Assembly: GCF_000469585.1 (NCBI RefSeq)
Contig: NZ_AWNK01000009.1
Coordinates: forward strand, 1-64,000
Source: Chrysiogenes arsenatis DSM 11915
Lineage (GTDB): Bacteria > Chrysiogenota > Chrysiogenetes > Chrysiogenales > Chrysiogenaceae
DNA length: 64,000 nucleotides
Direction: 5' to 3'
Made by a program: the position numbers and the translations under genes. Positions 46,663 to 60,846 of this stretch are shown piece by piece (position 1 is the stretch's first letter; each line of letters starts with the position of its first letter). The notes under the pieces were generated by a model. The model was not told the origin of the DNA and did not search any database. It saw only the letters and a list, made by a program, of their open reading frames with translations.

Positions 46663-48177
46663 TTACAATCTATTCGCGTCAATAATCCGATCAATACTAT
46701 TCTTATCCATCACAAAACGTTGCGACTCGTTGAGTTCGTCCTGCGAATCGGTGCGGTAATGGGCACCAATACTCTTTTTGCGGGTTATGGCAGCGGCGAT
46801 AATAGCGTTGCAGAGTGGATGCCACGCCGCATCGGCTTGAGCATGCAACTTCGCAATCCCTTTTGCTAAAAGATCCTGTGAACGGATAATGCCAGCGTGT
46901 CGCCACATGGTCTGTCTGATACTCTCTGGAACCGTATCGAGTGAAGCCGATTGATATGGTGCCCCTTTTTCTAGGGAGCAGTTCTTATAACCGCTTTGTG
47001 GTGCATCTTGCAGTGCGCTCAGAGCAGCTTGCTCGCCAAATACCAACCCTTCAAGGAGCGAATTGGACGCAAGGCGATTCGCTCCATGCACGCCGCTACA
47101 GGCTACTTCTCCTGCAGCATAGAGCCCTGTCAATGATGTTCTGGCGCTCACGTCAGTCAGTACGCCACCCATGCAATAATGGGCTGCTGGTGAAACAGGG
47201 ATTGGTTCCATGCTGATGTCCATGCCGTATTTAAGACAGGTTTGGTAGATCGTAGGGAATCGTTGCTGAACAAACTCTTTCCCAAGATGCGACACTTGTA
47301 AGTACACATCTTGTCCAGTACGTTCCATTTCAAAATTGAGCGATCGGCTCACCACGTCACGAGGAGCGAGTTCCAGCATTGGTGAATAGCGTTCCATAAA
47401 ACGCTCTCCAGCTTTGTTCAGGAGAATTGCTCCCTCGCCACGCATCGATTCTGAAAGGAGAAATGGCGGGCAACCCGCTACATTTAACGCAGTAGGGTGG
47501 AATTGAATAAATTCCATATCGACTATTGAAGCACCGGCACGGAGTGCAAGAGTGATTCCATCGCCCGTAGCGACTGTTGGATTCGTGGTATAGGCGTAGA
47601 GCTGTCCCATGCCGCCTGTAGCTAAAATGACCCCGCAGGTATACACATGGTGAGTTATTCCCTCGTGGCACAAGGCAACGCCGCGAGCAACCCCTTTTTC
47701 TGTTAGTAATTCCAACGCACGTGTGTTTTCCCAGATCGTAATGTGCGGCATGTTATGTGCTTTCGCACTGAGCGCTCGTTGAATTTCATTCCCCGTTGCG
47801 TCGCCATTTGCATGCAGAATGCGGTTTGTGCTATGAGCCGCTTCGCGAGTAAATTTGAGCTTACCGCCATCTTGGTCAAAATACGCTCCCCACTGAATGA
47901 GGCGTTGAATCAACACAGGCCCCCGCTCTACTAAGTAGCGAACGGCCTCAATATCATTCAGGTGAGCTCCCGCTTCAAGCGTATCTTGAATATGCAGACC
48001 ATAATTATCTTCTTCATGAAGTACGACCGCCACACCACCCTGTGCATAGCTGGTATTCGTCTCTTGAAAGGACGACTTGTTGACAACCAACACTGAGCGT
48101 CCATGTTCGGCTAAAGTAATGGCTGCAGCAAGGCCAGCAGCGCCGCTCCCAAGAACAACAAATTCGAAAGCATCCAT
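46663..48177 (-). CDS. nadB: L-aspartate oxidase
   Basis: The 504-residue flavoenzyme oxidises aspartate to iminoaspartate, the first step of de novo NAD synthesis. The FAD-binding motif is VLGSGAAGLAAAI at residues 8-20. TNTSYAQGGVAVVL, the HPTALN substrate segment and HGANRLASNSLLEGLVFG are typical of NadB and separate it from succinate dehydrogenase. GAAAGG precedes the ATG. It stands alone on the minus strand; nadA and nadC are not in the window. The 191 bases between it and the PKS stop codon hold its promoter region, although I could not assign boxes with confidence. Confidence 0.95.
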   Translation of the reverse strand: MDAFEFVVLGSGAAGLAAAITLAEHGRSVLVVNKSSFQETNTSYAQGGVAVVLHEEDNYGLHIQDTLEAGAHLNDIEAVRYLVERGPVLIQRLIQWGAYFDQDGGKLKFTREAAHSTNRILHANGDATGNEIQRALSAKAHNMPHITIWENTRALELLTEKGVARGVALCHEGITHHVYTCGVILATGGMGQLYAYTTNPTVATGDGITLALRAGASIVDMEFIQFHPTALNVAGCPPFLLSESMRGEGAILLNKAGERFMERYSPMLELAPRDVVSRSLNFEMERTGQDVYLQVSHLGKEFVQQRFPTIYQTCLKYGMDISMEPIPVSPAAHYCMGGVLTDVSARTSLTGLYAAGEVACSGVHGANRLASNSLLEGLVFGEQAALSALQDAPQSGYKNCSLEKGAPYQSASLDTVPESIRQTMWRHAGIIRSQDLLAKGIAKLHAQADAAWHPLCNAIIAAAITRKKSIGAHYRTDSQDELNESQRFVMDKNSIDRIIDANRL

Positions 48178-48368: not shown

Positions 48369-51300
48369 TTACAATAGCCCTTTCAGTTCAGCCAAAATAT
48401 CGTGCGCGGTTTGAGTACTCTTCGTCTTCGCTGTGGACTCCGCTTCGTTATTCAATGGTAAATGTTCCTGTAATAAGTGGTTCGCGAGCCCAGCGATCGT
48501 CGGAAAATTAAACAGAGTTGCCACAGTAAGGGAAATTTGAAGCTCCTTCACCAGAGCGTTGCGTAAATCGACCGCCATAAGTGAGTCAAGACCCAGTTCG
48601 ACGAGTGGTGTTGTGGGATTGAGGTGGCTCGCATCGATTCCTATGATGGCGCCTGCTTGTTGTTGAATACAATGAATCATGAGCTGATGGCGCTCTTCTA
48701 ACGTAGCGGTTTGCAATTGTTCGAGTATTGATGCCACCGGTGACGTTGCGGGGTGGTTGTCGTGTGTTTGAGACGAAGTGAGCAGCGAAGCCAGCCAGCG
48801 AGTATTGGAAAGCTGATTGATGCGTGTGTACTGTGTCCAGTCGCAAGCGAGTGCTGCAACAGCGGCGACTCTTGATTGTTGCGCCTGCTGCAGAAGTGAC
48901 ACAAGAGCGTGCGGTGGAAGATAACGAAATCCCTGCCGTTCAACCATGCGCCGCACGGTATCCGAGCTTTCTGCCATGCCACCGCCCGCCAGTGGCCCCC
49001 ATGCGATGCTGATCGCCGGAAGTCCATGTTGTTGGCGCAAATACGCCAAGCCATCGAGAAAGGCGTTCGCAGCGGCGTAACCAGCCTGACCGCGGTTGCC
49101 CAGCACTGCCGCCGCAGAGGAAAAGAGTACAAAGCTGTCGAGTTCAAGGTGTGCGGTCAGTTGGTGTATGTGCCACGCCCCAGCACTTTTTGCCCCCAAG
49201 ACTCGCTGGAGTTGTGCGGCGTTGAGTTGTGATAGTGGCGCATCGTCGAGAACGCCAGCGAGGTGAAAAATCCCTTTGAGGGGTGGCACTGTTGCCTGAA
49301 TTGTCTGGAAAAGTTGCTCGCACTCCGACGCCACAGCTACATCAGCACGGAAAAATACCACGTTGGCCGCCGTGCAAAGCGACGCTATCCGTGCGGCAAC
49401 CGCGCCAGTAGGAGCATGTCGTCCGACAAGAGCGAGGTGTTTAGCCCCTGCCGCAACACAGGCTTCGGCCAATGCCAAACCAAGCGCGCCTGTGCCACCA
49501 CTGATCAGATAGGTCGCCTCTGATTTGAGCGCGAACGCGGGATTGGTCTGTTTTGGTGCAAGGCGAACGACACGTGGCAGCCAAAGTTGAGTGCCACGGA
49601 TGACCCCTTCCCGCTCTCCTTGTGGGTCGGCGACAAATGCGACGAGCGTAGCGAGCGCGGCCACCGACAATCGATGTTCAAGATCGATACTGCCACCCCA
49701 GAAGTGCGGGTATTCCAAAGCAGCGCTGCGCGCAAACCCTTGCCATGCGGATTGAAATGGATCTATCGCGACGTTCTGGCGCGGCGTGGCGTTTGTGGTG
49801 ATAAGCCAAAAGCGCAGAGCAATGGGCTGTGGGACGCGTTCACCGATCTGGGCAATCACTGCTGCTGCATGGGCAAGCGATTCGGCCAGAGCATGAACGT
49901 CGTTTTCGTTTTGCGGCACAGGTGTAAAGTACAACAGAATTTTTCCCTCTAGGTGTGGCAACCACCGATCAACTCTTTCGGGAACTGCAACTTCGCATGT
50001 GCCACCAAGCTTGAGAATGCCAGCTGCATAGAGGTCGGTGGTACTGCTTTCGCCTAACAACAGAAATGACGCGTTTGCCACATCGCCATGCGGCATGGTT
50101 TCCTGCCACGTGACTTGATAGAGGAGATCAGCATGCGTGTCAGACGCAAAGAGAGTCTGGCGATCCGTGCGCCGCAAACTAAACCCTGTGATAGCCAGTA
50201 AATGCGTACCGTCAGCCGCATAAACATTGACGTCACCCTCAATGGCATCGCCAGTCGTTTGCGAGCGGGAGTGACACCAAATTTCTGCAGTAAACGGAGC
50301 GAGAAGATGAATCTGCAGCGCACCCATCGGGATATAAATGCGCTCACCACCTTCGATGGCCTGTCGGAATTCGTCTGAGGCGGAGGCCATACTTTGCAGA
50401 ATAGCATCCATCAACCCCGGATCGGGTGCACCGCCATCCACAACACCTTCAAGCCGACATAACGATTCGTCATCTCCCGCAAATATCTCGCGAATACGAC
50501 GATACGATGACCCAACACGATAGCCAGCGGCCAGAAAAGCGTTGTAAAATGATGTAGGATCGTGCGCAACCGTACAGCGTTGGCGCAGGTTTGCGAGCGA
50601 TGCGACGGGTGATGGTGGTGTGGCAGGAACCACCGTTGCCTGACAATGTTCCTGCCATTCGGTTTTTGCTTCACCGTGGGCGCGGCTCACAATGCGCGCC
50701 GCGCGCGTAGATTGATGGCTTGGAGCGCCAAGTATTACCTGCACGTCACGCCCGGCCTGATCGACCAGGAGTGGACGGACGAAGTGGACATCCTGCAGCC
50801 GTAGCGGCGTTCCTCCTTCATCACAAACCGCGAGCCCAGCGGCCAGCAACATACAGATATGCGCGGCGGCAGGCGAAAGGACACGATCAAAGATGATGTG
50901 TTCCGCTAAAAATTGCGGTGTATCCGGCGTAAAATGGGTTTCAAACAGCACTCCATCGCCCAACGCTGGCGACTCAATGCGGGTGCCGAGCAGCGGATGA
51001 CCGTGACGCACCAGCGATGCGGTGAGAGTAACGGCTGGTGGTTGCGGCGTTGTCCAATATGGTGTCCGCTGAAACGGGTAGGTTGGCAGCGTCGCCGTCC
51101 GTCTTCCAGATTCTGAGTAATACACCGCACTGGAAGCAAGGTTGCGTTCGATACAGTGGCACAATGACGTTGCACTCTGCTGGAGATCATCCTGACCAGC
51201 GCGGAGGCTGGGAAGCCATTCCACATGAGCCATTTCCCCCATCATTTTGCCAAAACCACAGAGCACGGGAGTAGGGCCTATTTCAAGGAATGTTGTATAC

Positions 51301-54300
51301 CCATCTTGTAAAAGCGTTTGTAAAGCATCGGCAAAGCGTACCGGTTCGCGCAACTGGCGTCGCCAGTACGCAGGTGTACAAAGGTCGCCGTTTTCAGCTA
51401 TTTTTCCGCTCAAAGTTGATACTATGGGGAATTGCGTGGAATTCATAGGGACAGTAGCCGCAGCCGCTTCAAAGTCACGTACGATTGGTTCCATCGCCGG
51501 CGAGTGGAAGGGGTGCGATACGGTCAGGTAACGGGCACTTTTGCCCATCGCTTCATACTGCCGAACGATCTGGTGCACCGCTTCGGCGTCGCCAGAAATA
51601 ACCACACTCTGCGGCGTGTTCACGGCTGCAATCGCCACGCGGTCGCTGACCCCAGCTAGCAGCGGCAGCACCTCACGTTCCGTCGCCTGCAGCATCACCA
51701 TCACCCCACCTGTAGGCAAAGAGTCCATCAGTTGTGCCCGCCGCGCGACAAGCCACACGGCATCGGGTAGCGACATCACTCCAGCTATGCAGGCGGCGGC
51801 AAATTCGCCAATGCTATGGCCGATAGCGGCAGCTGGAGTCACCCCCCATGATTGCCACAAGGCGCAGAGGGCGTATTGCAGGGTAAACAGTGCGGGCTGA
51901 GTATAGACTGTGCGCGCCAGAAGTGCCGCATCGTTTCCATACATAATGGCGCGAATGGAACATCCAAGGTGAGGTGCGAAGAGTTGGTCGCACTCGTCAA
52001 CCGCTTGTTGAAAGCAAGGCCACGCGCGATACAACCCCTGACTCATGCCGGGGTACTGTGACCCTTGTCCGGTGAACAGAAAAACAACTCCCTTGGTATG
52101 GGAAGCATCAGGAGATTGATTGACAGTAGTCAGACGTTTGCGCAATGCCTCAGCCAGCTCTGCAAACGTCTGGCCAGCGACCGCCAGACGTGCCGGAAAC
52201 CGAGTGCGCCCGTGGGCGGCGGTGCGGCAAAATTCGCCGACGGTGCCGGTAGCCGTTTGAAGCGTATCAAGGTAGCGTTTACCTGCTGCTTGCAGTGCGC
52301 CTGGAGTCCGTGCTGAAATTTCAAGAATGTGACACGGAAGATCCTGCGGCGGAGCCACGGGAGTCGTTACGGGAGCTTCTTCGATAATCACATGAGCGTT
52401 CGTACCGCTAAAGCCAAACCCACTGAGCGCGGCACGGCGCGGGGCGGTCGATGGCGGCCACGGTGTTGCGTGCGTGACGATTTGGAGCGGCAACGTTTCC
52501 CACGCAATATGGGGATTTGGTGCCTGAAAAGCAGCTTGCGGCGGAATCGTGCCGTGTTGCAGCGCCAGCACGACTTTGAGCAAGCTCGCCATCCCCGCAG
52601 CTCCTTCAAGGTGCCCGATGTTCCCTTTCACCGAACCAAGCAAGAGTGGCCGTTTACTCGTACGGTTCTGGCCATACACACCACTGATGCCGGAAACTTC
52701 GACGGGATCGCCAAGCGGTGTGCCCGTGCCATGCGCTTCGATATAGTCAATATCAGCCGGGTGCAAGTTGGCATCGGCCAAGGCGCGCTGAATTACTTGT
52801 TGCTGCGCTAAACCACTGGGAGCGGTGAAGCTGGAACTCGCACCGTCTTGCCCAATAGCGCTCCCACGTATGATGGCCAAAATAGTGTCGCCATCGCGCT
52901 GCGCATCGGAAAGTCGCTTCAGCAACACCGCGCCACACCCTTCACCGCGACCATAGCCGTTGGCCGCGGCATCAAAAGGCTTGCAACGTCCATCGGGCGA
53001 GAGAGCGCCGAGTTTTGAGAAGTAAACAAATAAGTGTGGTGACAACAGTAAATTGACACCAGCCGCCAGCGCCGCCGTACATTCGCCAAGCCGTAGTGCT
53101 TGACAAGCGAGGTGCAGGGCGACCAGCGATGAAGAACAGGCGGTATCGACCGACAGATTCGGCCCCGTAAAATCAAGAATGTACGAGAGACGTCCACCGG
53201 AAGAGCTAAACATTGAACCTGATCCGGAGTAGGCATCAATGCGGTCAAGCGTGCCGGAATAGAGGTGAGCCGTTTTGTAGTCATCCGAGCAGATCCCCAG
53301 ATAGACGCCAACATTTTCCCCTTTGAGTTTTTCCAGCGGGATATTGGCGTGCTCGATGGTTTCCCACGCAACTTCCAAGAGTAAACGCTGTTGCGGATCA
53401 AGGGCGCGGGCTTCGCGGGGAGGAATGCGGAAAAATGGCGCGTCGAATTGATCGAGCTGATCTGGCACCAGAAAACCACCGTGCTTCACTGTGCTTTTCC
53501 CCGGCACTTCCGGATTGGGATCGTAATATTCCGCAACATCCCAACGGATGGTCGGGATTTCGGAAATGGCAACGGCACCACGTTTCAAAAGATCCCAATA
53601 CTCCTGCGGCGAATTCGCTCCACCCGGAAAACGGCACCCCATACCAATAATGGCGATAGGTTCATTGTTTTCTGCATGGTGCGAGAGTGCGGCTTCCGGT
53701 TTTACTGTTGTCACTCGACCAAGGCATTTTTCAAGATGAGCGGCCAACGTGGCTGGTGTGGCATGATCGAAGAGTGTCGTAACAGGGAGCGTGAGGCCAA
53801 GTGACGCTTCGAGTTGCCGCGTAATCACGATACTCATCAACGAATCGACGCCCTGATCAAAAAAACCGGTGTGCGGATCGACGGTGTGGAGATCGTTGTT
53901 ACTCGCTTTGCGAATAACTTGTTGGATATGTGCAAGTAGGTCAGGAATATCTTGGGTGGGCGCGGTGGCGCGAGGAGCATTGTACTGTTCTGCGGCACAT
54001 TGAATAGAGGCGCTTTCGTCGCCTCTCGCTTCACGCCAGCATTCATGGAGGGCAACCTGCAAAACGGGATGCGGCGAAACTTCGATGAAATGGGAAGAAC
54101 CATCGCGCAAGAGCGCAGCCATTGCCGTTGCAAATTGAACCGGTTCGCGGAGGTGTCGCACCCAATACTCAGCTCCAAAGTCGCTGGCATGAGCCTGAGC
54201 ACCACGCCAAGACGAATAGATAGGCGTATGTGGGGTTTGTGGCGCAATGCCATGCAAAGCCTTATAAAATCCTGCTAAGGCGGGATCAACGTGCGCGCTA

Positions 54301-54893
54301 TGAAAGGCCACATCAGTGGGCAGTTCGCGGTGAAATATCTGGCGCTGTTCGAAGAGCGCCAGCGCAGCAGCGATCCCGTGATCACCTGAAAATACCACCG
54401 AGCGCGGACTATTGATGGCAGCAATCGTTAGTGGTAACCCTTCTGAGTCGAGAAACGATTGCGCTTCATCGGCTGACAGGGCGGCAAACACCATGCGACC
54501 ACGGCCACCTATTTGCTGCATCACACGGCAGTGAGCGGCAATGATCGTGACGGCGTCTGGCAATGTGAGGATGCCTGCAATATGCGCGGCGGCTACTTCG
54601 CCCCCGCTATGCCCCAGCACCGCCGTTGGCTTCAGACCGCGCGCCGCCAGTTGTTGCGTCAGACCGAGTTGAACAGCAAAAATAATCGGATGCGCTACCC
54701 AAGGGATATGAAAACGCGAGTTTTCCGCCGAAGCGCCTATTTCATCGTGGAGTGATATACCAATCGCTTCACGAAACAGTGGCGTAAGTTGCTCTACGAC
54801 GGCGCGAATATGCGGATTTGTGTGCAGCACATCGGCACTGGTCTCTTTCCATTGCGCCCCCATGCCGGAATAGATAAACGCGCGTTGTTGCAT
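48369..54893 (-). CDS. Type I polyketide synthase, AT-ACP-KS-AT-DH-KR-ACP
   Basis: The 2174-residue megasynthase has, in order: AT1 about residues 4-290 (GHSGG, Ser96); ACP1 317-392 (Ser351); KS 410-840 with Cys586, His721 and His761; AT2 935-1230 (GHSIG, Ser1027); DH 1296-1575 with His1332 and Asp1496; KR about 1590-1975 (GGTGALG, Tyr1939, Asn1943); and ACP2 2068-2142 (Ser2104). AT2 keeps the carboxylate-binding Arg1052 and an HPFH motif, which suggests malonyl-CoA. AT1 has His121 there, which suggests a monocarboxylic starter. The KR has an LDD motif (B-type). ER and a fused thioesterase are absent; a type II thioesterase and a PPTase lie upstream in the operon. I chose the ATG at 54893 behind AAGGTG because a longer frame overlaps the previous gene. 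It could act once or iteratively. Confidence 0.95.
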   Translation of the reverse strand: MQQRAFIYSGMGAQWKETSADVLHTNPHIRAVVEQLTPLFREAIGISLHDEIGASAENSRFHIPWVAHPIIFAVQLGLTQQLAARGLKPTAVLGHSGGEVAAAHIAGILTLPDAVTIIAAHCRVMQQIGGRGRMVFAALSADEAQSFLDSEGLPLTIAAINSPRSVVFSGDHGIAAALALFEQRQIFHRELPTDVAFHSAHVDPALAGFYKALHGIAPQTPHTPIYSSWRGAQAHASDFGAEYWVRHLREPVQFATAMAALLRDGSSHFIEVSPHPVLQVALHECWREARGDESASIQCAAEQYNAPRATAPTQDIPDLLAHIQQVIRKASNNDLHTVDPHTGFFDQGVDSLMSIVITRQLEASLGLTLPVTTLFDHATPATLAAHLEKCLGRVTTVKPEAALSHHAENNEPIAIIGMGCRFPGGANSPQEYWDLLKRGAVAISEIPTIRWDVAEYYDPNPEVPGKSTVKHGGFLVPDQLDQFDAPFFRIPPREARALDPQQRLLLEVAWETIEHANIPLEKLKGENVGVYLGICSDDYKTAHLYSGTLDRIDAYSGSGSMFSSSGGRLSYILDFTGPNLSVDTACSSSLVALHLACQALRLGECTAALAAGVNLLLSPHLFVYFSKLGALSPDGRCKPFDAAANGYGRGEGCGAVLLKRLSDAQRDGDTILAIIRGSAIGQDGASSSFTAPSGLAQQQVIQRALADANLHPADIDYIEAHGTGTPLGDPVEVSGISGVYGQNRTSKRPLLLGSVKGNIGHLEGAAGMASLLKVVLALQHGTIPPQAAFQAPNPHIAWETLPLQIVTHATPWPPSTAPRRAALSGFGFSGTNAHVIIEEAPVTTPVAPPQDLPCHILEISARTPGALQAAGKRYLDTLQTATGTVGEFCRTAAHGRTRFPARLAVAGQTFAELAEALRKRLTTVNQSPDASHTKGVVFLFTGQGSQYPGMSQGLYRAWPCFQQAVDECDQLFAPHLGCSIRAIMYGNDAALLARTVYTQPALFTLQYALCALWQSWGVTPAAAIGHSIGEFAAACIAGVMSLPDAVWLVARRAQLMDSLPTGGVMVMLQATEREVLPLLAGVSDRVAIAAVNTPQSVVISGDAEAVHQIVRQYEAMGKSARYLTVSHPFHSPAMEPIVRDFEAAAATVPMNSTQFPIVSTLSGKIAENGDLCTPAYWRRQLREPVRFADALQTLLQDGYTTFLEIGPTPVLCGFGKMMGEMAHVEWLPSLRAGQDDLQQSATSLCHCIERNLASSAVYYSESGRRTATLPTYPFQRTPYWTTPQPPAVTLTASLVRHGHPLLGTRIESPALGDGVLFETHFTPDTPQFLAEHIIFDRVLSPAAAHICMLLAAGLAVCDEGGTPLRLQDVHFVRPLLVDQAGRDVQVILGAPSHQSTRAARIVSRAHGEAKTEWQEHCQATVVPATPPSPVASLANLRQRCTVAHDPTSFYNAFLAAGYRVGSSYRRIREIFAGDDESLCRLEGVVDGGAPDPGLMDAILQSMASASDEFRQAIEGGERIYIPMGALQIHLLAPFTAEIWCHSRSQTTGDAIEGDVNVYAADGTHLLAITGFSLRRTDRQTLFASDTHADLLYQVTWQETMPHGDVANASFLLLGESSTTDLYAAGILKLGGTCEVAVPERVDRWLPHLEGKILLYFTPVPQNENDVHALAESLAHAAAVIAQIGERVPQPIALRFWLITTNATPRQNVAIDPFQSAWQGFARSAALEYPHFWGGSIDLEHRLSVAALATLVAFVADPQGEREGVIRGTQLWLPRVVRLAPKQTNPAFALKSEATYLISGGTGALGLALAEACVAAGAKHLALVGRHAPTGAVAARIASLCTAANVVFFRADVAVASECEQLFQTIQATVPPLKGIFHLAGVLDDAPLSQLNAAQLQRVLGAKSAGAWHIHQLTAHLELDSFVLFSSAAAVLGNRGQAGYAAANAFLDGLAYLRQQHGLPAISIAWGPLAGGGMAESSDTVRRMVERQGFRYLPPHALVSLLQQAQQSRVAAVAALACDWTQYTRINQLSNTRWLASLLTSSQTHDNHPATSPVASILEQLQTATLEERHQLMIHCIQQQAGAIIGIDASHLNPTTPLVELGLDSLMAVDLRNALVKELQISLTVATLFNFPTIAGLANHLLQEHLPLNNEAESTAKTKSTQTAHDILAELKGLL

Positions 54894-54901
54894 ATGTTTC
54901 A

Positions 54902-54907
54902 CACCTT
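54902..54907 (-). promoter_or_regulatory. Ribosome-binding site of the PKS gene
   Basis: AAGGTG on the minus strand is eight bases before the ATG at 54893. It supports that start over the upstream frame opening at 54971, which would run into the coding region of the preceding gene. Confidence 0.55.
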
Positions 54908-54927
54908 GAGTGCTTTTTCGGGCACGG

Positions 54928-56511
54928 TTATTGTTTGATCGAAGGTAATGTGGTGGCCTTCTCTTCTCCATGAGTCAACATGTGAATGATCGTATTGATG
55001 AGGCCGCTATTCAGGTCGGAACGGACAGCAATTTCTTGGGTAGACGGTTGCACTCTGGCGGCAATGGCACCCACTTTGTAAAGTGTATCGGGCGGCAACG
55101 TTGCGATCGTCACACCTAAATTATTCGGATCACTTTCAAAATACGAATAACGGTTGGTCATCACCACGATGTATGCGTCGAGCGGGGCCAGCCAGTAGGA
55201 CGCAACGTTATAGCCCGCAAATTGCCCACTGTGACCAAAAAGTGAGTTGTCGATGCGAGCCAGTCCGCGCGCGTACTGAAATGTCGTGTTGGGGTCGAGT
55301 GGTGCTCCACTCACCCAGTAGGCAGATTCCTGACGGCTTTGCACGCGACTAACCATGACATGCTGCAGAAATTTCATCAGGTCAGAGGCGTTAGAAACCA
55401 TCCCGCCGGTTGTCCACGCAAAGGAGGGATCAACTTCAGAGAAGTCTTCCAGTGTGCCATCACCATTGATGTAGGGTTGTGCGAGCAGGGTACTGTCGGG
55501 TGTGTCATTGGTGCGGAATTTGAGAAGATCGGTGTCAGATGAATCGTAGGGAGCATTAAAATAATCAGCATACCCGTGAACAAAAGGCGCACCACCACGG
55601 AATTGCCGTTCACCCGGAATAGGTAAATAGGTTTGGGTCAGGTTGAGTGGCGCGGTGATCAGGCGCGCAACTTCGTCATGCACGGGATTACCCGTGGCTT
55701 TTTCAATGATCAGTCCGAGCAAATAATAATTGGTGTTGGAATATTTAACGGTTGATCCGGGAGAAGAGGTCGGATTGGTTCCGTAAGGGGTGCCGACACT
55801 ATCGCCAGTAGCCGTTGTGAAAGAGGCTGGTGCATCAAACGTATCAACGAATCCGAGTATTTCGCTGCTGTCCCACGTTTTTTGTCCGTGACTCATCACA
55901 AATTGATTCATCGGCATTTGCATGTCGGGCGAATCCCCGTGCACCAGACGCGCATCGGTGGTCACATAGCTATACAGGCCACTGGTGTGGTTGAGCAGCA
56001 TGCCAATGGTAATCACACTTCCCTTGCCGGCGTTGATACCGGTCAACGTGCCAGGCAACCATTTTTCAACGGTATCACTCAAGGAGAGTTTCCCTTCGGC
56101 GGCGAGTTTAACGACGACATCAGCAATAAACATTTTTGTGACACTGGCAATGCGAAACGGCAAATCAATGGTCATAGGCGTATAACAGGTGTTCGGAGCG
56201 GCAGTATCAATTTCCGCGCATCCGACGGCATAATACCACGGTTGATAACCGTTCAGGTGAACCGCCACAATGGCGCCGGGGGTTTGGCTACCGGTGGCAT
56301 TGTGATAGTATTGGTTCGTGCCATAAAAATAATCATTTACCGATTGTTGCAGTGCGGCATTCGTAGTCGCTGTCACAGGAGGCGGCGTGGAAGCATCACC
56401 GGAAATATAATTTTCCCCTCCACCGCATCCAATAAGCGTGAAGAGTAAAACAGTACAGAGTGTGACCCAAATACGTGAACCAGTGGAAGCAAGCAGAGTG
56501 CATGTTGGCAT
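54928..56511 (-). CDS. Beta-lactamase-fold serine hydrolase lipoprotein in the PKS cluster
   Basis: The 527-residue lipoprotein (lipobox LIGC, Cys29, then three glycines) carries a class C beta-lactamase/D-Ala-D-Ala peptidase-like domain, about residues 60-450. The three active-site motifs are present: SVTK (SxxK) in RIASVTKMF, YSN in VKYSNTNYYLLG, and HSG in LFGHSGQFAG. Family members include esterases, peptidases and, in polyketide pathways such as that of lovastatin, acyltransferases. Its place between the aminomutase homologue and the PKS, in one operon, suggests periplasmic maturation, hydrolysis or self-protection for the product. AGGAG lies seven bases before the ATG, and the PKS starts 34 bases after the stop. 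Confidence 0.9.
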   Translation of the reverse strand: MPTCTLLASTGSRIWVTLCTVLLFTLIGCGGGENYISGDASTPPPVTATTNAALQQSVNDYFYGTNQYYHNATGSQTPGAIVAVHLNGYQPWYYAVGCAEIDTAAPNTCYTPMTIDLPFRIASVTKMFIADVVVKLAAEGKLSLSDTVEKWLPGTLTGINAGKGSVITIGMLLNHTSGLYSYVTTDARLVHGDSPDMQMPMNQFVMSHGQKTWDSSEILGFVDTFDAPASFTTATGDSVGTPYGTNPTSSPGSTVKYSNTNYYLLGLIIEKATGNPVHDEVARLITAPLNLTQTYLPIPGERQFRGGAPFVHGYADYFNAPYDSSDTDLLKFRTNDTPDSTLLAQPYINGDGTLEDFSEVDPSFAWTTGGMVSNASDLMKFLQHVMVSRVQSRQESAYWVSGAPLDPNTTFQYARGLARIDNSLFGHSGQFAGYNVASYWLAPLDAYIVVMTNRYSYFESDPNNLGVTIATLPPDTLYKVGAIAARVQPSTQEIAVRSDLNSGLINTIIHMLTHGEEKATTLPSIKQ

Positions 56512-56528: not shown

Positions 56529-57833
56529 CTAGGCGGATGAGCCGCTGTTAGGTGAAAAGAACGGAACGTCCTGAGGGCGTAATGGTCGTAAATCACTGAA
56601 CCAATCGGCATTTGCATCGTATTCAGCACAAAAAATCCGCAAAACCTGTGCCGCATCTGGCGACTGCAGGTAGCGCAGCAACAGGGCAGGTTTCCCGTTG
56701 ATCTCTTGCACATCGACCACTTGCACTTTGCCATGTGGGGTAGACATACATGGCCCACGCGCCGTGCGACAAATGCCACTGACGTTCCCCCAGGCGGTGC
56801 GGTAGATTTCAAGCGCTTCGACTAAAGGGACGCGGAAATAGTGACGCGCTCCGGTATCGCGCACGATAAATTGATAGTATGGGATGATTCCAAGGCGAAC
56901 TTGCTCTTGCCAGAGGTCGACCCATGTTGTCGCTTCGGCATTGATATGGCGGAGTAACGGTGACTGTGCGCGAATTTCAGCTCCCGTGGCTCGTATACGT
57001 TGAACGGCCTGCTGTACGGCTGGTGTGGCAAGTTCACGCGGGTGGTTCATATTGGCGACAATAGCAAGATGTTTTCCACTCGCAATAATGCGCTCAAAAG
57101 TTTGCAAAAGAGAGTCGGCGTCAGGGTCGGTCAGGAAACGATATGGCCAATAGGTAATGGCTTTGGTGCCAAATCTGATGGCATTCAAATGGGGAATATT
57201 AGCAGCAAGAATTTTATCCACATATTCGGCAAGTATGTGAGCGGGCATCACCATTGGATCGCCACCAGTAAACAGGATATCGCGCACTTCTTGGTGCTGT
57301 GCCACATACTGCACCAGGGCGTTGATATCGGTGCTAACAAAAATTTCTTTTTCTCCGCCAACAAATTGGAGCCAACGGAAGCAAAACGTACAATGGGCAT
57401 GGCACATTTGCCCTTCAGCGGCAAAGAAAAGGACAGTTTCGGGGTAGGAATGGATAATTCCCTGCTGTTTTAATCCGTCAATAATCGGCAAGGTAGCATC
57501 CATGGTTTGTACGGAATGGGGGTTCAAATCCTGTCGAATTTCGCGCACCGCACGAGCAATGACCTGTTCCGTTTCGCCTTGGTGGAGTAACGATGCCAGC
57601 CGTTGATAATGATGTGGCTGGAGCATGTCACGGTTAGGAAAATTTAAACGGTACATGGGATCTGATTCGGGATGCTTCCAGTCGATAACTTCATCGACCA
57701 TGTATCGGTTCGTGCGGAAGGGAAACACGCGCCCAACCACAGCCGTAGCTTCCTGCAATTCAGCCGAAAGGTGTTGCCACTGCGGTAACGTGTGAATCGT
57801 TTCTCGGGTATAGGCACGAAATGTTTTTTGCAC
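56529..57833 (-). CDS. KamA-family radical SAM (lysine 2,3-aminomutase-like) enzyme
   Basis: The 434-residue protein aligns along its length with lysine 2,3-aminomutases, which move an amino group from C2 to C3 with SAM, an iron-sulfur cluster and PLP. The radical SAM cysteines are Cys144, Cys148 and Cys151 (CX3CX2C), followed by FTGGDPM. Lys369 in STPHGKV fits the PLP lysine. By eye, Arg325 takes the place of the substrate-binding Asp293 of the clostridial enzyme and the second Asp is not kept, so lysine is unlikely as substrate. An acidic substrate such as glutamate would fit Arg better. The start is GTG, 13 bases after the outer-membrane protein stop. It could supply a beta-amino acid to the PKS. 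Confidence 0.87.
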   Translation of the reverse strand: MQKTFRAYTRETIHTLPQWQHLSAELQEATAVVGRVFPFRTNRYMVDEVIDWKHPESDPMYRLNFPNRDMLQPHHYQRLASLLHQGETEQVIARAVREIRQDLNPHSVQTMDATLPIIDGLKQQGIIHSYPETVLFFAAEGQMCHAHCTFCFRWLQFVGGEKEIFVSTDINALVQYVAQHQEVRDILFTGGDPMVMPAHILAEYVDKILAANIPHLNAIRFGTKAITYWPYRFLTDPDADSLLQTFERIIASGKHLAIVANMNHPRELATPAVQQAVQRIRATGAEIRAQSPLLRHINAEATTWVDLWQEQVRLGIIPYYQFIVRDTGARHYFRVPLVEALEIYRTAWGNVSGICRTARGPCMSTPHGKVQVVDVQEINGKPALLLRYLQSPDAAQVLRIFCAEYDANADWFSDLRPLRPQDVPFFSPNSGSSA

Positions 57834-57846
57834 GGGATGTTATCTC

Positions 57847-58935
57847 TCAGTAGGCAAATTTAAATCCGGTTAAAAATTCGGTGTCCCGTTTTGCGGCAAC
57901 CGGCCAAGGGTTATTGTCAAACGCGACGGCGTACTGAATCAGAAAACCGACGTATTGATTGAGGGAAAATTCGAGGCTGTTTGTCCAACGCCAGTCATAG
58001 CGCTTAGTAGTACCAAGGATGATTGCTTTTTGTTCATCAAGGCCGGCTTGAGGGATGGTGGTTAACCCGTAAATATTGGTAGCGTCCAGGGCGCGCTTCA
58101 TGTTGAATTCCTGGCGGTAACGCAACATGTCAGTGAGGCGATGCGTGTAATCGGCACGGAGGTAGATACCATCATATTTTTCTGAATCATTCTGAATTAA
58201 GGTAGCAACCATCGGTGCGTACTCGTCGGAAATACGACCCAGTCCGAGGCGTATACCAAGGCGGTAGCGATTTTTGTCAACAACATCTTGCAGCACATTG
58301 TACGAACCGACACCCACAAAAGGGATAGTACGACTTTGAATGAAAATGGGGCTTAAACGCTGCCAAAACAGGCCTGCTTCGGCAAAAAGATAGCGGTTCA
58401 ATTCGTACTGCAAGGTTTCTTCAAAATTCTGCACGTCTTTTTCTGAGACATTGCCGTCAGGATTTTGAATCTCTTTTTTGTCAATGCTATAGGCTAAATG
58501 GTTCGTGAATCGACCTTTGCGAAGTCCAAGATACATTCCGCCATTTTTGACGGTACCATCGTCGTTGCCACTGAGTTCGGCAAAAGAGAATTTAAGGTGC
58601 GTGTGCTTTAGGAAATATGGGTATTCGGGGCTATATTCGAATGAGCTGTGTTCCCACCACTCTTCGGGTTGATTGGGTTGAAAGGTAGGGTGTGAAAAGA
58701 AACCCTGATACTCGCCGTACGGTTTTTCTGGGTTGATTTGCGGGGGAAGTTTTGGTGCGGATTGAATTTGACGGTACAAGTCGGGATAGTTTTCGCGAAT
58801 GTACTCCGGTGTGAGTTCAAGGCTCTGCGCGGAGGCGGCCGCGAAAAGGCAGAACGTTAAACTGGCCAAGCTCCATCGCAACATTGCCGAAACACGGAAG
58901 GCGGCTGACTTGAAAGGCGGGGTGACTCTCCTCAT
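57847..58935 (-). CDS. Predicted outer-membrane beta-barrel protein in the PKS cluster
   Basis: The 362-residue product has a signal peptide (LRWSLASLTFCLFAAASA, about residues 16-35). The mature protein then has repeated alternating-residue strands rich in Tyr, Phe, Arg and Asp, ending in FLTGFKFAY, the terminal aromatic expected of an outer-membrane barrel. The last 120 residues (RADYTHRLTDMLRYRQEF) resemble DUF481-type salt-inducible barrels, but only loosely. The start ATG follows AAAGGAG and overlaps the PPTase stop by four bases; an open frame upstream is not used. It may export or tether the product, or be an accessory without direct role in synthesis. Confidence 0.78.
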   Translation of the reverse strand: MRRVTPPFKSAAFRVSAMLRWSLASLTFCLFAAASAQSLELTPEYIRENYPDLYRQIQSAPKLPPQINPEKPYGEYQGFFSHPTFQPNQPEEWWEHSSFEYSPEYPYFLKHTHLKFSFAELSGNDDGTVKNGGMYLGLRKGRFTNHLAYSIDKKEIQNPDGNVSEKDVQNFEETLQYELNRYLFAEAGLFWQRLSPIFIQSRTIPFVGVGSYNVLQDVVDKNRYRLGIRLGLGRISDEYAPMVATLIQNDSEKYDGIYLRADYTHRLTDMLRYRQEFNMKRALDATNIYGLTTIPQAGLDEQKAIILGTTKRYDWRWTNSLEFSLNQYVGFLIQYAVAFDNNPWPVAAKRDTEFLTGFKFAY

Positions 58936-59615
58936 ACTTGCTCCTTTGCACTCCATGGCGTTAAACCGTGACGAGAAAGATAGATGCGCTCTATAACACA
59001 CGAAGATGGCTTTTCAGTAGTCGCAACATGAGCACAATAGTCGAATCCGCAGGAGAATTGCCGGATATGCCAACGCTCATGGTGTACGGTAGCCGTGTCC
59101 TCCTTGATAATGACTTCTTCCAGCGGCAGAAGTAACCCTTGGCCAGTACCTTTCAGAACAGCCTCTTTCGCCGTCCAGTAGGTATAAAACTGACGTTGGC
59201 GCGCGGCGGGGTCGAGCGCTTTGAGTTCCGGCAAATGTCCCACGAACTCATCAAATGCGATCGGACGAATCTGCTCAACATCAACGCCTACCTTACCCGA
59301 GCTGGCACATGCAAGCACGACGACCGCTCCTGAGTGGGAGATATTAAACGACCAAGCACCTGCAATGAAAGGTTTTTTTGTATCAGTGTAGGTAATATTT
59401 TCTAAAGGATTGCAGAGTGTTACGTGTCGCGCGCCGCGTTGCTCTATCGCATAGAGCAACAGAAGTTTGCCAAGTAGCGTAGCACGTTGATCTTCCGGGC
59501 GTCGATAACGATGACATTGCTTTTGGAGTGGCTCAGGAAGAAGGGCAAGCAAAGAGTGTTGCTGAGTCGCCGAGAGTGGAGCATCGCACGCGATCCAAAA
59601 GATTTGCAATTTCAT
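58932..59615 (-). CDS. Sfp-type 4'-phosphopantetheinyl transferase
   Basis: The 227-residue enzyme transfers phosphopantetheine from CoA to the ACP serines (Ser351 and Ser2104 of the PKS here). The family signatures are both complete: GVDVE at residues 110-114 with metal-binding Asp and Glu, and WTAKEAVLK at 147-155. The N-terminal half shows the pseudo-dimeric fold (WSFNISHSG). The length is that of two-domain Sfp enzymes that act on secondary metabolism, not the short AcpS. The start codon overlaps the thioesterase stop (ATGA), and the stop overlaps the next gene. Confidence 0.96.
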   Translation of the reverse strand: MKLQIFWIACDAPLSATQQHSLLALLPEPLQKQCHRYRRPEDQRATLLGKLLLLYAIEQRGARHVTLCNPLENITYTDTKKPFIAGAWSFNISHSGAVVVLACASSGKVGVDVEQIRPIAFDEFVGHLPELKALDPAARQRQFYTYWTAKEAVLKGTGQGLLLPLEEVIIKEDTATVHHERWHIRQFSCGFDYCAHVATTEKPSSCVIERIYLSRHGLTPWSAKEQV

Positions 59616-60334
59616 GCTTCGGCCAAAGTCGCTTGTATGAGGGTGCCGATGGCATCGACATGGTCAAAAAGGAAAAAATGACCTCCAGTATACGTGACAA
59701 CGCGACAAGCACGGCTGGTATATTTCTGCCACTGCCACGCCTGTGCAAGGGTCGTACTTTCCTGATCGCCGATCAGGACTGTAATGGGAACTGGCAGAGG
59801 TGGTAACGCGGCGTGCTGATATTCTGCTACCACACGCATGTCATCGCGAATAATCGGCGCAAAATACTCCATCAATTCACGGTCATTAGCAACAGCTGGC
59901 GGGCACCCGCCTAACGTGATAAGTTTTTGCTTAAATTCTTCTAAGGGAAGAGTATACCAGCGAGCCTCGACGCTTGTTTGATCCGGAGCACCTTTGCCCG
60001 AAAGAAAAAGATGGCGGGGAAGTGGAAGATTGTTTTGCATCAACTTGTGCGTGGCCAAATAGATAACCAATGCCCCCATGCTGTGACCAAAAAGTGCATA
60101 GGGCTGCTGAATGGATGGAGCCAGTTGCGAGGTCAAATCAGACGCCATGGCGTCGATATCAGTCAGGCGCGGCTCCTGCCCTCGGCGCCCCCGACCAGGA
60201 GGCTCAAAGGTGACGACAGGCACCGTTGGTGATATGTTTTGTGCCAGTGGGCGGTAGGAATACACATTGCCACCGGCAAAGGGAAAACAGAAAAGTGATG
60301 TGGTTAAGTGAATCATACTCTTGCTTTCGAACAC
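59612..60334 (-). CDS. Type II thioesterase
   Basis: The 240-residue alpha/beta hydrolase removes stalled or mis-primed acyl groups from PKS/NRPS carrier proteins or releases the product. It shows LFCFPFAGGN near residue 14, the nucleophile Ser85 in GHSMG, Asp190 in LIGDQE and His219 in TGGHFFLF. This is the GrsT/RifR pattern. Because the PKS lacks a fused thioesterase, this enzyme may be the only hydrolytic release step. The start is either GTG at 60334 or ATG at 60316; both have weak ribosome sites. It lies 11 bases after the SET-domain gene. Confidence 0.93.
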   Translation of the reverse strand: MFESKSMIHLTTSLFCFPFAGGNVYSYRPLAQNISPTVPVVTFEPPGRGRRGQEPRLTDIDAMASDLTSQLAPSIQQPYALFGHSMGALVIYLATHKLMQNNLPLPRHLFLSGKGAPDQTSVEARWYTLPLEEFKQKLITLGGCPPAVANDRELMEYFAPIIRDDMRVVAEYQHAALPPLPVPITVLIGDQESTTLAQAWQWQKYTSRACRVVTYTGGHFFLFDHVDAIGTLIQATLAEA

Positions 60335-60345
60335 GAATCGTTTCT

Positions 60346-60846
60346 CTATATAGCTGAGGTAAGAGCTTCGCGCTGGTGAATTTGCGTTGCTATTTGCAGC
60401 ATCGTTTCACTTGAGCGCAATAATTTTTCAGCCCACGAAAGCCCAATGATCGGTTGATGCGTAACCGAGTCGCAAAAAGGGAGTTTAACCTCCGGTCCCA
60501 ATAAATATCGATAATCGACTGTGATCTCTTCTCCTTGCAATAAATCCCTTTGGGCAAACAGAAAACCTAAATGCCACAGACAACTCGGGGTGAATGAATG
60601 ATTGACAAAGCACTCGTCAGGCCATTCAGGGGATATTGTGCAATGGTTTTCGAACCAGCGAATCGATGATTCCGCATGCGGATGGTCGGGCACGGCAGTG
60701 AGTTCTTCAAGCGTAATAGTTTCGCTGATATGAGTTGGTGCAACAACGACCCTGCCGATATCAACTTTTTCAGACACAAAAAGCCCTTTTCCAGCCAGAG
60801 GAATTAACGAGTCGGCAACGTAATACGGGATATTTATCATGTCCAC
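60346..60846 (-). CDS. SET-domain protein leading the PKS operon
   Basis: The 166-residue protein has a small SET domain, the fold of SAM-dependent lysine methyltransferases. Visible parts are the N-terminal PLAGKGLFVSEKVDIG strand pair, an NHSFTPS motif at residues 82-88 (standing for NHSCxPN) and GEEITVDYRYLLGP at 105-118, with the pseudoknot tyrosine. Bacterial SET proteins outside pathogens are mostly uncharacterised; some occur in biosynthetic clusters. TAGGAGTGG precedes the ATG. As first gene of the operon its product could methylate a small molecule or a pathway protein, but neither is shown. Confidence 0.85.
   Translation of the reverse strand: MDMINIPYYVADSLIPLAGKGLFVSEKVDIGRVVVAPTHISETITLEELTAVPDHPHAESSIRWFENHCTISPEWPDECFVNHSFTPSCLWHLGFLFAQRDLLQGEEITVDYRYLLGPEVKLPFCDSVTHQPIIGLSWAEKLLRSSETMLQIATQIHQREALTSAI

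Follow-up and report, generated by a model that had tools for sequence, protein, structure and literature searches.

Lysine 2,3-aminomutase (KamA/AblA; structure 2a5h) holds the ε-ammonium group of lysine with two aspartates, Asp293 and Asp330, and Arg134 is the ligand of the α-carboxylate in 2a5h. The characterised glutamate 2,3-aminomutase is said, in work by Ruzicka and Frey from 2007, to have Lys and Asn at the recognition sites. A glutamate 2,3-aminomutase of the radical SAM type, IdnL4, has also been proposed to serve a polyketide synthase in the biosynthesis of incednine (PMC11284099).

The enzyme studied here, P0001, is encoded in a window of 64,000 nucleotides from Chrysiogenes arsenatis DSM 11915. 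Its gene starts with a GTG at 57833, preceded by GAGAG. P0001 matches the profile TIGR00238 (E 3.9e-39), and all KamA family models that match it score below their curated cut-offs, including those for lysine 2,3-aminomutase (TIGR03820, 110.8 bits against 525.4) and glutamate 2,3-aminomutase (EAM; TIGR04368, 94.5 bits against 650). Its sole PDB relative by sequence search is 2a5h (E 3.7e-21), which is also the top fold match of the AlphaFold model (pLDDT 90.7) at Z 33.5, the runner-up reaching Z 15.0. By its CxxxCxxC motif, PLP lysine and KamA fold, P0001 is a member of the radical SAM/KamA superfamily, and searches of the genome contigs (an assembly of 2,825,161 bases in 22 contigs) detected no KamA-type gene besides it. 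The positions on which the comparison turns are as follows.

56529-57833, minus strand: P0001, KamA-related radical SAM/PLP enzyme of 434 aa (ORF call with profile, PDB and fold matches)
57381-57404, minus strand: cluster motif C144-x3-C148-x2-C151 (alignment)
57375-57377, minus strand: Arg153, equivalent to Arg134 of lysine 2,3-aminomutase, in 143/143 of the family (alignment)
56859-56861, minus strand: Arg325, equivalent to Asp293 of lysine 2,3-aminomutase, in 143/143 of the family (alignment)
56748-56750, minus strand: Cys362, equivalent to Asp330; in the family Ser 135, Val 7, Ile 1 (alignment)
56727-56729, minus strand: Lys369, equivalent to the PLP-binding Lys337 (alignment)

In MAFFT alignments, the P0001 block PYYQFIVRDTGARHYFR pairs without gaps with the lysine 2,3-aminomutase block PYYIYQCDLSEGLTHFR, and R325 therefore corresponds to Asp293; SGICRTARGPCMSTPHGK and SGFAVPTYVIDAPGGGGK are likewise free of gaps, so that C362 corresponds to Asp330 and K369 to the PLP lysine. 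C151-F-R153 falls on C-T-Arg134 of lysine 2,3-aminomutase. The initial annotation had described a KamA-like enzyme with arginine in place of Asp293, the second recognition aspartate replaced within a Ser/Cys region, and the cluster cysteines and PLP lysine retained; all of this is borne out. P0001 carries neither the Asp293/Asp330 pair of lysine 2,3-aminomutase nor the Lys/Asn pair reported for glutamate 2,3-aminomutase, having R325 and C362 at these sites.

One scan of public genomes returned at least 588 relatives of P0001, a large KamA-related group that we name the RDTG family. The best matches listed come from Nitrososphaerota, Halomonas, Bacteroidota, Chloroflexota, Aquificota, Methanococcoides and others, and plasmid copies occur in Streptomyces, Nocardia, Rhodococcus, Amycolatopsis and Mycetohabitans. 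The members form a single clade (SH-aLRT 100) apart from the lysine 2,3-aminomutases and the other KamA groups. Among 143 non-redundant relatives, R325, T327, M363, S364, K369 and R153 are invariant (143/143), R356 and R359 are almost so, and the 'RDTGA' loop reads RDTG[AP] in most family members. P0001 lies in this clade and has R325, T327, M363, S364, K369 and the CFRW motif. Since arginine occupies the recognition site in every relative counted, it is a hallmark of the whole family, and the earlier idea that it is particular to P0001 was rejected. The family apparently has no characterised member, as had been supposed, and the open-access literature yielded no publication naming the function of the gene.

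Outside the ammonia-oxidising archaea the RDTG gene is mostly solitary, which fits a one-enzyme osmolyte pathway, and no recurrent conserved neighbours were found there among the gene clusters counted; the TRAP-transporter genes that adjoin the Halomonas copies are common to related genomes only. Five IMG/VR viral contigs (L186-L190) encode an RDTG-family enzyme, all five with every key residue, and on one of them the gene (L189:5001-6272) immediately precedes one for the large subunit of a terminase (PHROGs match); these may be phage-borne genes for β-glutamate synthesis. On the Rhodococcus plasmid pDK3 (L024:14986-20575) the gene stands beside cupin, SidA-type monooxygenase and tRNA-ligase-like genes, which we take to resemble hydrazine-forming (N-N bond) systems. 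Elsewhere among KamA-type sequences, L004, outside the RDTG clade, also has arginine at the Asp293 position (in a CRPTLG loop), possibly through an independent change, and the group of L007, L008 and L012 has glutamate there and a loop before the PLP lysine that is two residues shorter.

P0001 is the clearest outlier of the RDTG family. It has lost eight positions that are invariant in the 143 others (L49, P107, Q110, N114, Q127, K129, P138 and H261), and any other RDTG member is the sole exception at two positions at most. It deviates at 28 of 147 strongly conserved columns, against 0 to 12 in other members, and its branch is the longest in the family tree (1.88 against a median of 0.53). Most of the lost positions fall in three places.

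57492-57515, minus strand: residues 107-114, where the family motif P107..Q110...N114 has become S107, T110, T114 (alignment)
57447-57455, minus strand: residues 127-129, where the family QHK has become IHS (alignment)
57051-57053, minus strand: Asn261, which is His in 143/143 relatives (alignment)

The set P107..Q110...N114, Q127-H-K129, P138 and H261 is missing in P0001 only. P0001 belongs to the family by descent and core residues and does not share this putative substrate motif. The lysine 2,3-aminomutase counterpart of K129 is Arg112; this position is Lys or Arg in most of the KamA sequences aligned, and position 261 is His in most of them. The P107-N114 segment is present in the family and absent from lysine 2,3-aminomutase, and a segment specific to the family in this way may help to form its substrate pocket; several of the lost positions are near one another, and near the cluster motif, in the sequence. 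Because eight family-invariant residues are gone, the probable substrate of the family cannot simply be transferred to P0001, and the losses might leave the enzyme with little activity or none. No close orthologue sharing them was found in 40 genomes of the phylum of L034, in 398 genomes of the phylum of Thiobaca, or in the best 80 of at least 588 genome loci.

The gene for P0001 is one of seven on the minus strand that are tightly packed, with few-base gaps or overlaps; 13-17 bp separate it from both its neighbours. The other six are listed in order of transcription.

60346-60846, minus strand: SET-domain protein, encoded at the head of the apparent operon
59612-60334, minus strand: type II thioesterase
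58932-59615, minus strand: Sfp-type 4'-phosphopantetheinyl transferase
57847-59001, minus strand: DUF481-like outer-membrane protein
54928-56511, minus strand: serine hydrolase of β-lactamase fold with a lipoprotein-like N-terminus
48369-54971, minus strand: type I polyketide synthase of 2200 aa, AT-ACP-KS-AT-DH-KR-ACP

P0001 is thus encoded in a polyketide operon, as a role like that of IdnL4 would imply, and is the only RDTG copy so placed among the loci examined. The operon contains no dedicated β-amino-acid decarboxylase or ligase; adenylation domains are located elsewhere in the genome, and two other contigs carry NRPSs. The L-aspartate oxidase gene nadB (46663-48177) was set aside as an operon member, being part of ordinary NAD synthesis. 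We note in passing that this bacterial polyketide synthase operon is headed by a SET-domain protein (60346-60846). At about 86-99.6 kb on the same contig (C7; L181:1-13651), a polyketide synthase is followed by a KS-ACP-aminotransferase-C-A-PCP-C protein whose A-domain code is Asn-like, a layout akin to that of the β-amino acyl lipopeptide synthases of iturin or microcystin type. A 2697-aa NRPS on contig C2 (L182:8284-16374) has a radical SAM and B12-binding unit inserted within an adenylation domain, and in its first adenylation domain Glu replaces the usual Asp235; an asparagine synthase gene adjoins it. The most economical role for P0001 would be to supply a β-amino acid to one of the assembly lines of this genome.

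Our main reading, to which we give about even odds (roughly 0.5), is that P0001 is a radical SAM/PLP 2,3-aminomutase of RDTG descent, that the family converts glutamate to β-glutamate, and that P0001 itself acts on another or a broader substrate on behalf of a polyketide or peptide. By analogy with lysine 2,3-aminomutase, a [4Fe-4S] cluster on C144, C148 and C151 would cleave SAM, the amino acid would sit as an imine on the PLP of K369, R153 binding its α-carboxylate, and migration of the amino group from C2 to C3 would follow. In typical RDTG members the carboxylate of the side chain is probably bound by R325, perhaps aided by R356 and R359, which are conserved too; the most likely reaction is that of L-glutamate to β-glutamate, and in archaeal nitrifiers the product may then be amidated by a linked glutamine synthetase. 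P0001 keeps the catalytic core and R325; given the lost family residues and the polyketide synthase operon, its substrate is probably not free glutamate, or not free glutamate alone, and it would probably supply a polyketide or peptide with a β-amino acid as building block. We infer the substrates, and the recruitment of the gene into the operon, from the observed sequence, descent, residue losses, gene order and synthetase linkage.

It may be instead that P0001 is an ordinary glutamate 2,3-aminomutase, making β-glutamate as a solute or as a peptide or polyketide building block, and that its losses are tolerated drift. P0001 does retain R325, R153, R356, R359, K369 and the cysteines, RDTG relatives near NRPS-type genes (on Streptomyces and Rhodococcus plasmids) retain the full motif, and IdnL4 of the incednine cluster has been proposed for this chemistry (PMC11284099). 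Yet eight positions that are invariant in 143 archaeal and bacterial members are altered in P0001 alone, and we consider this alternative a serious one but unlikely. The loss of K129 and His261 and the longest branch in the family might also suggest a gene in decay, or one put to another use, whose aminomutase activity is gone; we regard this as improbable: the 434-aa frame is intact, the operon gaps are 13-17 bp, the cluster cysteines, PLP lysine and substrate arginines are all retained, and the AlphaFold model is confident.

For the family as a whole, the main reading places P0001 among enzymes that probably convert glutamate into the salt protectant β-glutamate, in ocean archaea and in many bacteria. 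Three lines point to glutamate as the probable substrate, namely the arginine in place of Asp293, the β-glutamate of Nitrosopumilus maritimus and the linkage to glutamine synthetase. The arginine replaces an aspartate that holds an ammonium group, as lysine does in the characterised glutamate 2,3-aminomutase. In N. maritimus, β-glutamate is the most abundant identified metabolite, at 730 mM (PMC8269262). Counted at the level of the genus, 46 of 47 Nitrosopumilus genomes have the RDTG gene (the exception being a 1.2-Mb genome), and in the single genome of the genus that was checked it is the only KamA-type gene.

Throughout the class of ammonia-oxidising archaea the gene is present in 67 of 120 genomes. 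A second glutamine synthetase occurs in 53 of the 120, every one of which also carries the RDTG gene (53/53), and in none of the 53 genomes without it; the two genes are adjacent on one strand in 41 of 53. This co-occurrence (Fisher p 3e-21, n=120) is uncorrected for phylogeny and confounded by shared ancestry, and 14 of the 67 RDTG-bearing genomes do not have the second synthetase. The second synthetase passes the GlnA cut-off, two synthetases were present in 8 of 10 RDTG-bearing archaeal genomes checked, and in the linked copies compared (L042:11399-12841 and relatives) the loop reads DNASAMH, against D[AS]GSGMH in the ordinary copy. For an archaeal glutamine synthetase, the residues listed for the glutamate site include Gly246 and His250 (PMC10799026), which by our placement would fall in this loop.

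The glutamine synthetase of Methanohalophilus converts β-glutamate to β-glutamine (PMC1224877), and for the methanogens under study at the time a glutamate aminomutase was excluded by early NMR work (PMC1224877), so an aminomutase route to β-glutamate is not universal. The RDTG gene is absent from the Methanosarcinaceae genomes of about 2 Mb that we checked as a Methanohalophilus-like control; it is therefore not the sole route to β-glutamate, since Methanohalophilus makes β-glutamine. Those genomes carry another KamA paralogue, of 363 aa, which perhaps belongs to the group of L007, L008 and L012. The gene is also found in genomes with no obvious osmotic need, those of gut Bacteroidota, which counts against an osmolyte role. 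The carboxylate side chain that the initial annotation thought plausible for the substrate is thus well supported for the RDTG family and less so for P0001.

What Arg325 makes likely is a negative or polar side chain, and some archaeal carriers have no second synthetase, so the family might act on another acidic or carboxylate amino acid, such as 2-aminoadipate or a linked glutamate, with the synthetase linkage reflecting general nitrogen metabolism; but it is β-glutamate that N. maritimus accumulates, most archaeal genomes checked have the linked synthetase in addition to a normal one, and the loop of the linked copy is altered, which leaves this alternative a low probability. The automatic annotation of the whole family as lysine 2,3-aminomutases, found in plasmid records and in keeping with the shared fold, deserves hardly any credence, both ammonium-holding aspartates being replaced, one by an invariant arginine, the TIGR03820 score of P0001 (110.8 bits) being far under the cut-off, and the gene clusters counted showing no recurrent neighbour of the ablB-like acetyltransferase kind.

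N. maritimus is a model of the ocean's archaeal nitrifiers, and we found no publication in the open-access literature that names its gene for making β-glutamate; a 2024 study reported that few ammonia-oxidising archaea encode ectoine synthesis and that alternative osmolytes were yet to be identified (PMC11428151). One testable family can now be proposed as the candidate, with the second glutamine synthetase as its testable partner enzyme, and P0001 would be a natural experiment in which the specificity of an aminomutase has changed and its radical chemistry has been kept. A bolder proposal, which we make tentatively and at somewhat under even odds, is that the RDTG family is the unrecognised β-glutamate synthase of ammonia-oxidising archaea and many bacteria, with marine phages as further carriers, that the dedicated second synthetase takes its product on to β-glutamine in the archaea, and that the Chrysiogenes copy has been neofunctionalised to feed a new β-amino acid into a polyketide or peptide.

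Set against the known systems, P0001 resembles lysine 2,3-aminomutase (KamA/AblA, 2a5h, TIGR03820) in its fold (Z 33.5), CxxxCxxC motif, PLP lysine and α-carboxylate arginine, and by analogy the same overall chemistry would be expected of it. It differs in having Arg for Asp293 and Cys (Ser in relatives) for Asp330, in its C-terminal part and in a score far under the TIGR03820 cut-off; the RDTG family, moreover, has an additional segment, NPHPxGQ…N.P, ahead of its radical SAM domain. With the EAM of Clostridioides difficile (TIGR04368) it shares the replacement of both side-chain aspartates and a positive residue at Asp293 (Lys in EAM, Arg in P0001), and the substrate of that enzyme is the one predicted for the RDTG family. 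However, P0001 has Arg and Cys (Arg and Ser in relatives) where EAM has Lys and Asn, and scores no nearer to the EAM model than to other KamA models. The likeness of IdnL4 to P0001 is one of role: it is proposed to be a glutamate 2,3-aminomutase of the radical SAM type that works for a polyketide synthase, and its activity in vitro was not observed (PMC11284099); the incednine system has a dedicated decarboxylase and ligase, whereas the P0001 operon is without both. The RDTG members of ammonia-oxidising archaea, Halomonas, Bacteroidota and others, at about 46-54% identity, share with P0001 its R325, catalytic residues and clade, but unlike P0001 keep P107, Q110, N114, Q127, K129, P138 and H261.
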